From Akkermansia muciniphila (GTDB lineage: Bacteria; Verrucomicrobiota; Verrucomicrobiia; Chthoniobacterales; Chthoniobacteraceae), in NCBI GenBank assembly GCA_945874745.1, contig CAMCIN010000004.1, positions 1-41,547 of the forward strand: a stretch of DNA of 41,547 nucleotides, in the 5' to 3' direction. A program made the position numbers and the translations under genes. The notes below the pieces were generated by a model, which was given only the letters and a program-made list of their open reading frames with translations, made no database searches and was not told the origin of the DNA. This document shows, one piece after another, positions 1 to 7,379 of this stretch; the stretch's first letter is position 1, and every line of letters begins with the position of its first letter.

Positions 1-383
1 AGTGCCAGCGCGCTGGTGGGGCTCCTTTTCTGGACGGTCGTTGTGCTTTGGTGGCTGGCTTGAAGCGGAGGGCACCCCCTCCTCGTCCGGTTCGCGGGGC
101 AAGGAGCAGGTTCTCCGCCCCCTCCGGGGGCAAGCGGGGCGGCTGGCGGGGCGAAAACTTAGCCGAATTCGGACGCTACGCGTGGTCAGTCGGAGCGGCA
201 CCAGTCAAGCAAGCGGAGGAGGGCCAAGGATGCAGTACGGGCAGAGAGTTGTTGCGCAGGCAAAGATGGCGGCCTGCTGGAAGGGTCGCCTCAGGAAACG
301 GCCTGTTCCGGAAAACAGCGCGGCCGCCTGAAACGGGTCCAGGCGGCCGGGTGTGAGAGGGAGCTCCGTCTGTCGTTGCGCGC
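1..383. other. Left-edge non-coding stretch downstream of nrdA
   Basis: No convincing gene is visible. Two overlapping plus-strand ORFs (2..331 and 48..356) are rich in Arg, Gly and Ser and resemble no family I know. The minus strand has no ORF in the track. I saw no tRNA T-loop, tmRNA or RNase P signature. The one clear element is a hairpin just after nrdA, listed separately. Confidence 0.5.
321..349 (-). terminator. Probable nrdA terminator hairpin
   Basis: CGGCCGCCTG and CAGGCGGCCG form a perfect 10-bp stem around a 9-nt loop, about 35 bp beyond the nrdA stop. Read on the minus strand, the hairpin is followed by CGCTGTTTTCC, so a short T-run lies on the nrdA side only. The T-run is short and not immediate, so this is a moderate call. 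Confidence 0.5.
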
Positions 384-3230
<2,847 letters not shown>

Positions 3231-3318
3231 TGGAGGCGGATGCGTGAGGACGACTGGCGAGGCGGAAAAAAAGGGCTGAGGACGATGGAAGAGCTGGCGG
3301 GGGGACGCCGGATACGGG

Positions 3319-4512
3319 TCAGATCAAGTCGTCTTCGTTGGAGTTCCGAACGCTGCCGCTGGTCTGGTACTCCGTGACGCGTGTCTCGAAGAAGTTTTTC
3401 TCCTTTTTGAGAAAGATGACCTCATCGAGCCAGCCGAAGGGGTTGTTCCGGACGCGGGAAAGCACCGGCAGTCCGAGGCTGCTCAGGCGGCGGTCGGCGT
3501 TGTATTCGACGTAGTCGAGGAACTCCTGCTGGCGCATGCCTACGATGTCTTCGGGCAGGCAGTCGCAGACGAATTCCTTCTCCAGTTCGACACCTTCGCG
3601 CATGAACTCAACGAGTTCGGCGCGGAAAGCCTCAGTCCAGATGTCGGGATTTTCGTTGATCAACTCCGTGAGGATGTAGCGGCCCAAGGCGATGTGGTTG
3701 GATTCGTCGCGGAGGGTGTACTGGAACATCTGTCCGATGCCGGTCATCTTATTCTGCCGGTGCAGGGAGAGGACCATGGCAAAGAGGGCGTAAAACTGGG
3801 TGCCCTCCATGACCTGGGTGATGGCAAAAAGCGCTTTGGCGAAGGCCTGCTTGTTGACGGTCTGGGTCAGGTCGATGCCCATTTTCAGGATCGGCATGTG
3901 CCTGGTGATGAAGGCGTTTTTCTTCCGGATGGACGGGATGTCCTGAAACTTCGCGGTCACCTCGTCCAGATCAATGTTGAGACTGCCGATGATGTGCAGG
4001 AGGGAGTCCATGTGGATGGATTCCTCGGCGATGTGACGGAGCGAGGCGTGCTTGAGCTCTGCGGCGGTCAGGTTGTCCTCGATGACGTGCAGGACAGAGT
4101 CGCCCACGATGCCTTCGGCGGCGGAGAAGTAGCCGATGCTCATCTCGATGATCCAGCGCTCTTTGGGGGAGAGGGCGTTGGTATTCCACTGGTGGGCGTC
4201 CTTGGACATGTCGATGACGTCCGGCTCCCAGTGGTTGGCCTTCATCTGCTTGTAGATGCGGTAGGCCTCCGTGTACTTGAGCGGGAGGACGTTTAATTCC
4301 GCGGAACGGTGGCCGTTGATGACCATTTTTCCGGCCAGCCGTTCCCTCGCCTTGGTCTTGTCGAGCCGGAAGGTTTTGTTTCGAAACTGGTAGACGACAA
4401 CATCGCCTTCCTCCTTTGCGGAGACGTCACCATGGATGCTGGTGAAGTTGAGGGGGTCTGCTGGACTGAGGGAAACAAGGTCTGGGTCGAGGGCGAGGAG
4501 AGCTGAACTCAT
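3319..4512 (-). CDS. nrdB: Ribonucleotide reductase beta subunit, tyrosine-less (class Ic-like)
   Basis: This 397-residue R2 subunit supplies the radical initiator to NrdA. Metal ligands can be read directly: Glu133 in SAAEGIVGD, Glu164 and His167 in EESIHMD, Glu236 in VMEGTQF, and Glu270/His273 in RDESNH. The position four residues after His167, where class Ia enzymes carry the radical tyrosine (E. coli Tyr122), is Leu171. Chlamydia trachomatis R2, the type member of class Ic with a Mn/Fe cofactor, has Phe here and also uses Glu as first ligand. The blocks LSLHRQNKM and KEKNFFETRV match the Chlamydia protein closely as I remember it. I infer a radical-free heterodinuclear cofactor. The ATG at 4512 follows a long leader with a predicted NrdR-type site. 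Confidence 0.93.
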   Translation of the reverse strand: MSSALLALDPDLVSLSPADPLNFTSIHGDVSAKEEGDVVVYQFRNKTFRLDKTKARERLAGKMVINGHRSAELNVLPLKYTEAYRIYKQMKANHWEPDVIDMSKDAHQWNTNALSPKERWIIEMSIGYFSAAEGIVGDSVLHVIEDNLTAAELKHASLRHIAEESIHMDSLLHIIGSLNIDLDEVTAKFQDIPSIRKKNAFITRHMPILKMGIDLTQTVNKQAFAKALFAITQVMEGTQFYALFAMVLSLHRQNKMTGIGQMFQYTLRDESNHIALGRYILTELINENPDIWTEAFRAELVEFMREGVELEKEFVCDCLPEDIVGMRQQEFLDYVEYNADRRLSSLGLPVLSRVRNNPFGWLDEVIFLKKEKNFFETRVTEYQTSGSVRNSNEDDLI

Positions 4513-4797
4513 AGGATACGATGTGGCAATGGGGCTTTGGCTTCGGCGAAAAACGGAGTGGTTGTGAACTGTCGAAGGGGCAGGGAACTGGAGCGGAGCG
4601 GTCGAAAATGTGTTGGACGGTAGGTATCTAGAGGAAAGTAAAGCCAGGCGCCGAATGCCCCGGGCGAAGCAGAAGCCGTTTCGAGGCGGTTTTGCGGGCT
4701 TGAGACCCAGCTAAACCCATCGGAATGAAATCTGACCGAACAACCGGAGGGACCATTTTGAGGTGGGGCCGATCGAGGGTGGTTGGAGCAGGCGCCG

Positions 4798-4810
4798 CCA
4801 CTATTAGTGG
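4798..4810. promoter_or_regulatory. 13-bp palindrome near the NrdR-like box
   Basis: CCACTATTAGTGG is a perfect palindrome around one central base. Its centre lies about 33 bp from the centre of the NrdR-like box. NrdR boxes usually occur in pairs 31-32 bp apart, so this may be a diverged second site. It is three bases shorter than the consensus core, so this is a weak call. Confidence 0.3.
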
Positions 4811-4831
4811 GGGCTGTTGGAAAAGAACAGG

Positions 4832-4865
4832 CAACATATAGTGGTTTGTGGCGGTCTGAAGTCAA
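4832..4865 (-). promoter_or_regulatory. Candidate nrdBA promoter overlapped by an NrdR-box-like site
   Basis: On the minus strand, TTGACT (plus 4860-4865) is followed after 18-19 bp by CTATAT/TATATG (plus 4835-4841). The second hexamer lies inside CACTATATGTTG, which matches 11 of 12 core positions of the remembered NrdR-box consensus (ACACwATATATwGTGT). NrdR boxes commonly overlap the -10 of RNR promoters. No nrdR gene is in this window. Confidence 0.5.
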
Positions 4866-5032
4866 GAGACCACAAGCCAAAGAAACCGAGTTTTTTGAGT
4901 GGGCGGGCGCCCGTTTTGGCACGAATTTTGATTCTCAGAGGGGCGGATCTCGGCAGAGCACCTTCGCGGGGATTGCCGTCTCTTCCGTCCCAGCATACAT
5001 TAGCCAACTCCACCTGTGTTTTCCTTCCCTTC

Positions 5033-5827
5033 ATGAACTGGCTTCGCAAGATTTTCCAATTCCGCGAACAAACCCACGGCGACGTAGTAAAGCCCTTCCT
5101 CGACCATCTCGAGGACCTGCGCTGGACGGCCATCAAGATGGGCACGGCTCTGGTCCTCGGGATGATCGTGGCGTTTTCCTTCGTGAAGGAGGTCACCGCC
5201 CTGGTGATGAAACCGGTCGCGGACCTGGGGGTGAAGCTGTTTATGCCCGGGGTGACTGACGGCTTCATGATCTCTCTAACGATTGCGTTTTATGCGGGGA
5301 TTGTGCTGAGTTTTCCTTTCTTGGTTTATTTCCTGGCAGAGTTTGTCCTCCCCGCCCTCACCTCCAAGGAGCGGCGGATCCTCCTGCCGGCCATTGGGGC
5401 GGGCTTTGTGTTGTTCGCCATCGGCGCCGTGGTCAGCTACTGGTACATCCTCCCCGCCACGTTGCAGTGGTTCACCAACTACAACACCTCGATGGGGATC
5501 ACCCAGCAGTTCGACGCCAAGATCTACTTTGGATTCGTTTCTCACCTGACTATTGCCTGCGGGTTGCTGTGTGAATTGCCGGTGGGCGTTTTGGGCCTTG
5601 CCGCCCTCCGGATCATCAACTACCCGATGCTGGCCAGGACGCGCCCCTACGCCATCACCGCGATCTTGGTGCTCGTCGCTCTCATCGCCCCGACCCCGGA
5701 CCCCTTCACCTTTATCGGTCTGTCCCTGCCCGTCATCGCGATTTACGAAATCTGCATCTGGATCGTCTGGCTGATGGACCGGCGCCGGATCCAGGAGGAA
5801 GCGGGCGAGATCCGCACCCTAGACTAG
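5033..5827 (+). CDS. tatC: Sec-independent protein translocase TatC
   Basis: TatC is the inner-membrane receptor for twin-arginine signal peptides and exports folded proteins. From the ATG at 5033 the protein is 264 residues, the normal size. It shows the N-terminal FLDHLEDLRW signature before the first membrane segment, about six hydrophobic helices, the SKERR loop that matches the conserved HERR glutamate region, GLLCELPVG with the second conserved glutamate, and APTPDPFTF before the last helix pair. The ORF track starts 72 codons earlier at 4817, but that extension is not TatC-like. No tatA or tatB is adjacent. The start has a pyrimidine-rich leader and no Shine-Dalgarno sequence. Confidence 0.93.
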   Translation: MNWLRKIFQFREQTHGDVVKPFLDHLEDLRWTAIKMGTALVLGMIVAFSFVKEVTALVMKPVADLGVKLFMPGVTDGFMISLTIAFYAGIVLSFPFLVYFLAEFVLPALTSKERRILLPAIGAGFVLFAIGAVVSYWYILPATLQWFTNYNTSMGITQQFDAKIYFGFVSHLTIACGLLCELPVGVLGLAALRIINYPMLARTRPYAITAILVLVALIAPTPDPFTFIGLSLPVIAIYEICIWIVWLMDRRRIQEEAGEIRTLD

Positions 5828-5878
5828 GAAGGGTTCACGGAGGGTACCGTTTCGCGATTTCCCATGAAAAAGGCAGTG

Positions 5879-5976
5879 ATCCGCAGATGAAAAAGATGCC
5901 ACAGATCAAGGAAAAGGTGCCAGAGGAGACCCTGTATGGTTTCTTCTCATCTGCTCCATCTGTGACATCTGCGGAT
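5879..5976 (+). repeat. CAGAT 9-nt-phased repeat element, copy 1
   Basis: The element is bounded by inverted termini ATCCGCAGAT and ATCTGCGGAT. The left arm has 9-nt units ending in AGAT or CAGAT; the right arm has 9-nt units starting ATCTG. The T-rich centre contains TATGGTTTCTTC. It lies between tatC and lysA, preceded by ATGAAAAAGG as in copy 2. Confidence 0.85.
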
Positions 5977-6016
5977 AGACTTCTGAACAACAGGCTTAGG
6001 TGCTCTCTTGGAGAGC

Positions 6017-6043
6017 CTGCGAGTTTCCCTACCCAAACGTGGG
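6017..6043 (+). repeat. Paired 27-nt motif, copy A
   Basis: CTGCGAGTTTCCCTACCC and the following AAACGTGGG match the segment at 23727-23753 in 22 of 27 positions. Each copy lies 40-50 bp downstream of a CAGAT element. Copy A is preceded by a perfect GCTCTC-TTG-GAGAGC hairpin and sits 59 bp before the lysA start. The function is unknown. Confidence 0.5.
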
Positions 6044-6101
6044 TTTGAGTGCCCCGAAAGCTGCCTTAGTCGACCGGTTTGATTTCCCACCCCTTAAATC
6101 C

Positions 6102-7379
6102 ATGCACATTGAAAGCGATCTGCTCCGAAGCCTAGCCGAAAAGGTAGGCACCCCGTTCTGGCTGTACTCCGCACCCACCATTCGGGAGCGGATTTCCGAG
6201 ATCCGCGAGGTGACTGCGGACGGGGTGCAGGCCCGGTTTGCGATGAAGAGTTGTCCGGCGACCCGCGTGCTTGAGGAGATGCAGAAGGCTGGGATCTGGA
6301 TAGACGCGGTGTCCGGAAACGAGGTGTTGCGCGCGATGCATGCAGGGCATCCGGGCGGCCAGCAGCCTCCCGTGATCCTCTACACGAGCGACGTTTTCCG
6401 GGACAACGGCCTGCCCGTAGTGCTGGAGCAGGGAATTTTGCCGAACGTGGGCTCCGCAGGAATGCTGGCGGACTTGGCGGCGGCGGGGTACCGCGGGGAC
6501 GTCTCGATCCGGGTGAACCCCGGGTTCGGACACGGGCATGTCAACTCGTGCGACACGGGCGGGCCCAGTTCGAAGCACGGCATCTGGCTGGAGCAACTGG
6601 GGGAGGTGGCGGCCAAGGCCGAGGCCGCGGGACTGCGGGTGGTGATGCTGCACGCACACATCGGGAGCGGGCCGCGTTTTGAAGAGCTTTGCGAGAATCT
6701 GGAACGTTTGGCCGGTGAATTTGCCGCGTTGTTGCCGCAGTTTCCGCACCTGCAGGGGGTCAGTCTGGGTGGGGGAATCCCGCACAATTACAGGCAGGCC
6801 GACGCGCAGATTCCTCTGGCGCCTCTGCGGGAACTGTTCGCGCGCTGCCGCGAGACGCTTTGCCGGGCAGCGGGCCGTCCGATCCGGGTGGAGATCGAGC
6901 CGGGGCGCTATTTTGTGGCGTCGGGCTGCGTTTTGGTGGCGCGTGTGGCCGATGTGAAGACCACCTCGACGAATGAAAAGGGACAGGGGGCGACCTTTGC
7001 GATGGTGGACGCCGGTTTTGTCGACTTGGTGCGGCCCGCGATGTACGGGAGCTACCACCGGATCGAGGTGGTCGCACAGGACGGGGGCGAGCGCGCGGTT
7101 GGGCCGATTGTGGTGGCGGGGCCCCTGTGTGAAAGCGGGGATGTTTTTACGCGGGACGACGCCGAACTTCTGGTGCCGCGGGACCTGCCTCAGCCGGTCG
7201 CTGGCGATCTGCTGGTGCTGCACGACGCGGGCGCCTACGGCTACGCGATGAGCTCCAACTACAATTCCATCGGCAGAGCGCCGCAGGTGTGGCTGGAGGC
7301 TGACGGCAGCACCTCGCTCATCTCCCGGCGCGAAACGTTGGAGGATTTGCTTCGCGCGGAAGTGAACGAGGCGATCTAG
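6102..7379 (+). CDS. lysA: Diaminopimelate decarboxylase
   Basis: LysA is a PLP enzyme that decarboxylates meso-diaminopimelate to lysine, the last step of lysine synthesis. From the ATG at 6102 the protein has 425 residues. The fold-type III features are visible: the PLP lysine Lys49 in RFAMKSCP, HAHIGSG, SLGGGIP, EPGRYFVA, and the family C-terminal GPLCESGDVF with the active-site cysteine and glutamate. The ORF track begins at 6000, but those 34 extra residues overlap the paired 27-nt motif and are not LysA-like. The FAMKSC context resembles the E. coli-type enzyme more than the common YAxKAN type. It appears monocistronic, facing the end of the sugar-acid operon. No Shine-Dalgarno sequence is visible. 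Confidence 0.92.
   Translation: MHIESDLLRSLAEKVGTPFWLYSAPTIRERISEIREVTADGVQARFAMKSCPATRVLEEMQKAGIWIDAVSGNEVLRAMHAGHPGGQQPPVILYTSDVFRDNGLPVVLEQGILPNVGSAGMLADLAAAGYRGDVSIRVNPGFGHGHVNSCDTGGPSSKHGIWLEQLGEVAAKAEAAGLRVVMLHAHIGSGPRFEELCENLERLAGEFAALLPQFPHLQGVSLGGGIPHNYRQADAQIPLAPLRELFARCRETLCRAAGRPIRVEIEPGRYFVASGCVLVARVADVKTTSTNEKGQGATFAMVDAGFVDLVRPAMYGSYHRIEVVAQDGGERAVGPIVVAGPLCESGDVFTRDDAELLVPRDLPQPVAGDLLVLHDAGAYGYAMSSNYNSIGRAPQVWLEADGSTSLISRRETLEDLLRAEVNEAI

Follow-up and report, generated by a model that had tools for sequence, protein, structure and literature searches.

The window analysed here, 41,547 nucleotides in all, carries on its minus strand the two genes of a class I ribonucleotide reductase (RNR). 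nrdB (3319..4512) encodes the radical-generating subunit (R2 or beta), a protein of 397 aa of what will be called the Leu type. It scores 222.6 bits against Pfam PF00268, 316.6 bits against NCBIfam PRK07209 (cut-off 309) and 253 bits against the C. trachomatis structure PDB 4d8f, which confirms the preliminary description of this open reading frame as NrdB; the strand had been left unstated. Directly downstream, starting 88 bases past the end of nrdB, lies nrdA (384..3230, minus strand), coding for a class I catalytic subunit of 948 aa with an N-terminal ATP-cone. NrdA displays C363, C584 and C599, the pair Y902-Y903 and a C-terminal CESCQ; by their motifs, C363/C584/C599 and Y902/Y903 are taken to be the counterparts of E. 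coli C225/C439/C462 and Y730/Y731. The protein ends in Cys-Glu-Ser-Cys-Gln, placing a CxxC at its extreme end, and the spacing is presumably tighter than in the C-terminal cysteine pair of E. coli. Downstream of nrdA, a terminator-like hairpin of 12 pairs followed by a T-rich tail (321..349, minus strand) is probably the end of an nrdB-nrdA operon, with the reserve that 7 such sites were observed in the region for 6.6 expected by chance, so that a hairpin is weak evidence here. No match to the NrdR-box consensus was found in the window at up to 3 mismatches, nor to a sigma-70-like promoter in positions 1-6200.

To fix the register of the metal site, NrdB was aligned, by profile and pairwise, with C. 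trachomatis 4d8f and 1syy, S. erythraea R2c 6y2n and E. coli 1mrr. Against the C. trachomatis, S. erythraea and E. coli structures the alignment is free of gaps from E133 to L171. All six metal ligands are intact, in the arrangement E133, E164-x2-H167-x3-L171, E236 and E270-x2-H273. The first of them, E133 (codon GAA, 4114..4116; all codons cited are on the minus strand), falls on C. trachomatis E89 and E. coli D84. The second and third, E164 and H167 (4012..4023), correspond to E120 and H123 in C. trachomatis and to E115 and H118 in E. coli, while E236 (3805..3807), E270 and H273 (both within 3694..3708, together with D269) are in register with C. trachomatis E193/E227/H230 and E. coli E204/E238/H241. 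In profile and pairwise alignments alike, Leu171 (codon CTC, 4000..4002) falls on the radical tyrosine Y122 of E. coli and on F127 of C. trachomatis. Both observations from which the present work started, a leucine at the radical position and a Glu rather than an Asp as first ligand, as in Chlamydia, are thus borne out, and the alignments put no tyrosine there. The residues of the radical path are kept: W95 (4228..4230; E. coli W48), D269 and the C-terminal Y382 (3367..3369; E. coli Y356). With Tyr265 (3718..3720), the equivalents of C. trachomatis W51, Y222 and Y338 are all conserved. As far as its sequence goes, NrdB is certainly tyrosine-free at the radical site and endowed with a class Ic ligand set. 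Leucine is found in all homologues of the same type, so that Leu171 reflects neither a sequencing error nor chance.

The NrdBzc (class Ic) group is described by the ligands E-E-H-E-E-H, a second-sphere Glu and Asp, and a radical site occupied by ‘Phe, Leu, or Val’ (PMC6370689, citing Lundin 2009). NrdB fits this RNRdb pattern at all eight residues, E133, E164, H167, E236, E270 and H273 plus the second-sphere E163 and D269 (C. trachomatis E119 and D226), and leucine is one of the three residues named for the radical site. A profile built on the Leu clade points in the same direction, reaching 334 bits with C. trachomatis class Ic and 285 bits with S. erythraea R2c, against at most 163 bits with the remaining structures and 45-62 bits with class Id entries. 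An AlphaFold model of NrdB, computed from a 40-sequence alignment (mean pLDDT 84, pTM 0.81), was used for a fold search, in which ranks 1-14 were all occupied by C. trachomatis R2 or S. erythraea R2c (E <= 4e-17); the next match, at E 1.7e-12, was more than 4 orders of magnitude weaker. C. trachomatis R2 (PDB 1syy, 4d8f, 4m1i) is the best match in both sequence and fold, with 35-38% identity in fold alignments. It shares the ligands, E119/D226, W51/Y222/Y338 and the lack of a radical tyrosine, but NrdB has Leu in place of Phe, Thr266 in place of Ile223 and T238/Q239 in place of I195/F196, belongs to a different clade and, unlike in C. trachomatis, its gene precedes nrdA. In S. erythraea R2c (6y2n) the first ligand is likewise Glu and the radical site holds Phe; the fold is the same, with a Foldseek rmsd of 1.9 across 305 columns.

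Aligned with the signatures of classes Ia, Ic, Id and Ie, as the preliminary description had proposed, NrdB carries that of class Ic and those of neither Ia/Ib, Id nor Ie. Class Ia/Ib calls for an Asp first ligand and a radical Tyr, where NrdB has E133 and L171. Class Id (NrdBi: F. johnsoniae, L. blandensis, F. ignava) resembles NrdB in its Glu first ligand and its metal-centred oxidant, but is marked by a Glu-x3-Lys-x2-Trp signature starting from that Glu (PMC6754362). Similarity of NrdB to this group is weak, and G137, V140 and L171 stand in the places of Lys (+4), Trp (+7) and the retained Tyr. In class Ie three carboxylate ligands are lost and a modified Tyr is expected, whereas all four Glu are present here and the Tyr is not. 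R2lox was discarded in view of Y382, the C-terminal radical-path Tyr, of the adjacent nrdA and of R2lox models scoring far under the cut-off. The ferritin-like protein of class O resembles NrdB in that its radical site is occupied by Phe or Leu, but it is short and ends just past the C-terminal Tyr (PMC9531940); here 15 residues follow Y382, and the partner of the Leu-type NrdB is, unlike that of class O, a full-length class I NrdA with an ATP-cone.

The association between first ligand and radical position was followed among relatives. A first count on 204 R2s always found Leu (100) and Phe (23) with a Glu first ligand and Tyr (81) with Asp. A larger alignment brought together 123 Leu, 25 Phe, 18 Ile/Val and 84 Tyr rows, 250 in total with near-copies and repeated or overlapping fetches included; there too, Glu goes with Leu, Phe, Ile or Val and Asp with Tyr, with zero exceptions. 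After thinning to <=80% identity, 66 sequences were left, in which Glu is paired with Leu (25), Phe (12), Ile (3) or Val (2) and Asp with Tyr (24). Leu171 and Glu133 occur together in 123/123 Leu-type rows and in 25/25 once thinned.

Leu-type R2s are found in the genus of the window, in many verrucomicrobial families and in other classes of the phylum. They form two subclades with about 51-54% identity between them: EESIHMDSLL, to which the query and its family belong, and EENIHADSL[LV], which covers most of the other families together with a Fimbriimonadaceae genome. The latter, from Armatimonadota (L039), has a Leu-type nrdB 54% identical to that of the window, with no nrdA match in the ~6 kb fetched on each side of nrdB, and suggests a transfer between phyla. 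A MAG titled ‘Chlamydiae bacterium’ (L036), whose Leu-type nrdB shares about 80% identity with that of the window, is probably a mislabelled verrucomicrobial bin. A Phe type resembling that of C. trachomatis, up to 73% identical to it, also exists in Verrucomicrobiota of the same order, in families f4 and f13 and in G014, which belongs to the same family as the window. Similarly, the verrucomicrobial family f16 (L192-L196; genomes of ~2.2-2.5 Mb) carries a Phe-type class Ic R2 close to that of C. trachomatis, so that Phe and Leu types are both present in the phylum. In another genome of the window's genus (G005, L222), the Leu type is accompanied by a second R2, with an Asp first ligand and Tyr, on a different contig; its match in the first search was flagged as containing a stop codon.

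In an R2 phylogeny, another of the checks that had been proposed, the grouping of the Leu clade with class Ic references depends on whether distant outgroups are included. In this main tree, from which the two trait columns were removed and whose rooting is assumed, Leu sequences form one clade (100/100), with a viral Ile/Val clade as sister (99/91) and, next out, a clade of Phe enzymes (96/93), some of them from Paceibacterota and Krumholzibacteriia genomes. A 100/97 branch sets the Leu and C. trachomatis clades apart from the Tyr enzymes. A first tree with distant outgroups kept the Leu clade (92/82), but very long branches were joined and the relative placement of Leu and C. trachomatis clades was unsupported. 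The branch leading to the Leu clade is itself long, at 2.79 changes per column in the main tree, and metal preference may therefore have shifted along it. In the same tree, S. erythraea R2c falls inside the Tyr/Asp enzymes (96/92), and owing to it a single origin of all Glu-type R2s is rejected (p-AU 0.011). Consequently, the change from Asp to Glu together with the loss of Tyr seems to have occurred at least twice, S. erythraea R2c having apparently made it independently.

The pocket that surrounds the radical Tyr in class Ia is made up of two Phe and an Ile (PMC3824934). Of the two Phe, F240 (3793-3795) is present in all Leu-clade rows and F244 (3781-3783) in all but the tandem paralogues described below. 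In E. coli numbering, the pocket residues are F208, F212 and I234, equivalent to F240, F244 and Thr266 (3715..3717; C. trachomatis I223), respectively. At the Ile position, Thr266 is found in 123/123 Leu rows and Thr in 18/18 viral Ile/Val rows, whereas Ile is kept in 25/25 Phe types and 81/84 Tyr types; the thinned set was examined as well. T238 and N272 are also common to the Leu and viral Ile/Val clades. As these are sister clades and a single event may account for the pattern, the pairing of Thr266 with Leu is an association and no proof of coupling. We put forward tentatively, as an idea more likely wrong than right, that the two clades make up a distinct ‘aliphatic-pocket’ subclass. In it, the missing aromatic side chain would be paired with the change of the pocket Ile to Thr, and the T266 hydroxyl, in contact with the metal-1 water or hydroxide, would make the metal preference or the potential of the cofactor differ from that of C. 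trachomatis class Ic. In any case, the Leu/Ile/Val plus Thr pocket offers a mutagenesis-ready comparison with the Phe plus Ile pocket of C. trachomatis.

Gene order also separates these groups. Considering unthinned rows, nrdA lies downstream of nrdB in 107/107 Leu-type rows where nrdA was seen, and upstream in 108/109 rows of the Phe, Tyr and viral types. Two genomes of one genus (G325, L190:3500-5829, and G415, L191:3496-5858) display two tandem nrdB before nrdA. The second NrdB, 51-53% identical to the first, keeps the six metal ligands, W95, D269 and Y382, but Y265 is changed to Asn, the pocket F244 to His and W120 to Asp, and the segment before the C-terminal Tyr is remodelled with loss of the NFFE motif. 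This second copy could act as a helper, in the manner of yeast Rnr4, or represent a new metal site.

The genome to which the window belongs, 94% complete, encodes one PF02867 protein and one PF00268 protein; no PF13597 protein (NrdD) was found in it, and no class II or III RNR back-up. With sole catalytic and R2 subunits and no NrdD, the enzyme must be under selection to work. Many relatives devoid of a Leu-type nrdB have a different PF02867 protein, which in the one checked (G012) is a B12-dependent class II enzyme.

The literature already admits leucine at the radical site of class Ic enzymes, and NrdB is not novel in that respect. Besides the criterion cited above, ‘phenylalanine or leucine’ is given for class Ic (PMC12918982), and leucine, isoleucine and valine are documented in R2c (PMC3824934, citing Hogbom 2010). 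Class Ic outside Chlamydia was also known, from haloarchaea (PMC3824934), and S. erythraea 6y2n is a further case by its sequence. The preliminary description, which presented a leucine variant as extending the class beyond Chlamydia within the PVC group, therefore stands for the wide extension, over many verrucomicrobial families, and not for the novelty of the leucine or of class Ic enzymes outside Chlamydia. Our literature search retrieved no Leu-type R2 with measured cofactor, metal or activity and no paper on the cofactor of a verrucomicrobial NrdB; the occurrence of Thr266 with this type, the inverted order of the two genes and the tandem second NrdB of two genomes look unreported. A viral ‘subclass Ic-like’ RNR has been described whose radical site is occupied by Ile or Val (PMC12918982). 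Judging from their residues, the viral contigs of our set (18 rows, L229-L246) probably belong to this virioplankton clade: they combine Ile/Val with EEHEEH ligands and, as in the Leu clade, T238, T266 and N272, but differ from it in having Ile/Val instead of Leu and nrdA upstream of nrdB. A search of a phage collection gave no match at >=60% identity.

Taken together, the ligands, the NrdBzc signature, the nearest structures and folds, the outgroup-free tree and the absence of class Id and Ie signatures make class Ic the best reading. We consider it likely that NrdB provides a class Ic-type RNR with its radical-generating subunit, and that the oxidant is Mn(IV)/Fe(III). The class proposed at the outset is upheld by these lines of evidence; the Mn/Fe centre itself is inferred from relatives, and the identity of the metal does not follow from a Glu first ligand alone, as class Id (Mn2) has Glu too. 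According to this model, apo-NrdB would take up Mn(II) at site 1 and Fe(II) at site 2, then react with O2 to give Mn(IV)/Fe(IV), and a one-electron reduction via W95 and/or Y265 would then produce the working Mn(IV)/Fe(III) state. At every turnover, this centre would pull an electron from NrdA C584 by the usual path, running through W95-D269-Y382 in NrdB and Y902/Y903 in NrdA. Leu171 would be inert, occupying the place of Phe127, and Thr266 may fill or hydrate the space freed beside Mn1 by the smaller side chain. The ATP-cone of NrdA would confer control of overall activity by ATP/dATP.

Other oxidants have to be weighed against the Mn/Fe centre. The metal could be different, either Mn2(IV,III) formed via superoxide or H2O2 as in class Id or a high-valent di-iron centre, with the Leu and Thr pocket matching it. 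The pocket does differ from that of C. trachomatis in every Leu-type sequence, and class Id likewise combines a Glu first ligand with a metal-centred oxidant (PMC6754362). We nevertheless hold this to be unlikely: Glu-x3-Lys-x2-Trp is missing (Val140, and Gly137 at the Lys position in 123/123 Leu rows), the second-sphere residue is E163 where NrdBi has Cys or Ser, class Id retains its Tyr, and its structures give the low profile scores reported above. Still less probable is a tyrosyl radical moved from the Y122 position to another near-metal Tyr, such as Y128 or Y241. Within the Leu clade Y128 never varies, and Phe takes its place in Phe, Ile and Val types, but E. coli, a Y122 user, has Tyr in this column too, Y241 is common to Phe, Tyr and Leu types, and no near-ligand Tyr is exclusive to the Leu clade; moreover, the replacement of Asp by Glu parallels the known metal-radical class.

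An inactive or non-RNR paralogue, of the type of an R2lox-like oxidase or a dead beta-prime, would also explain the loss of the radical Tyr, since R2lox and beta-prime proteins have lost it as well. It is, in our view, scarcely credible given that Tyr382 and the C-terminal tail are conserved, that nrdA adjoins nrdB in all the Leu-type loci where it was seen, and that the genome holds no second R2 while R2lox models score far below the cut-off.

Returning to the Mn/Fe reading, if NrdB does depend on this pair of metals, a tyrosine-free metal-radical RNR would be common in a large phylum whose members mostly live freely, instead of being peculiar to the obligate intracellular Chlamydia. This would weaken the case for its origin as a resistance to host immune radicals, a nitric oxide hypothesis for class Ic repeated in PMC4118035. 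The organism itself would then need both Mn and Fe for replication, this enzyme being the only RNR found in its genome.
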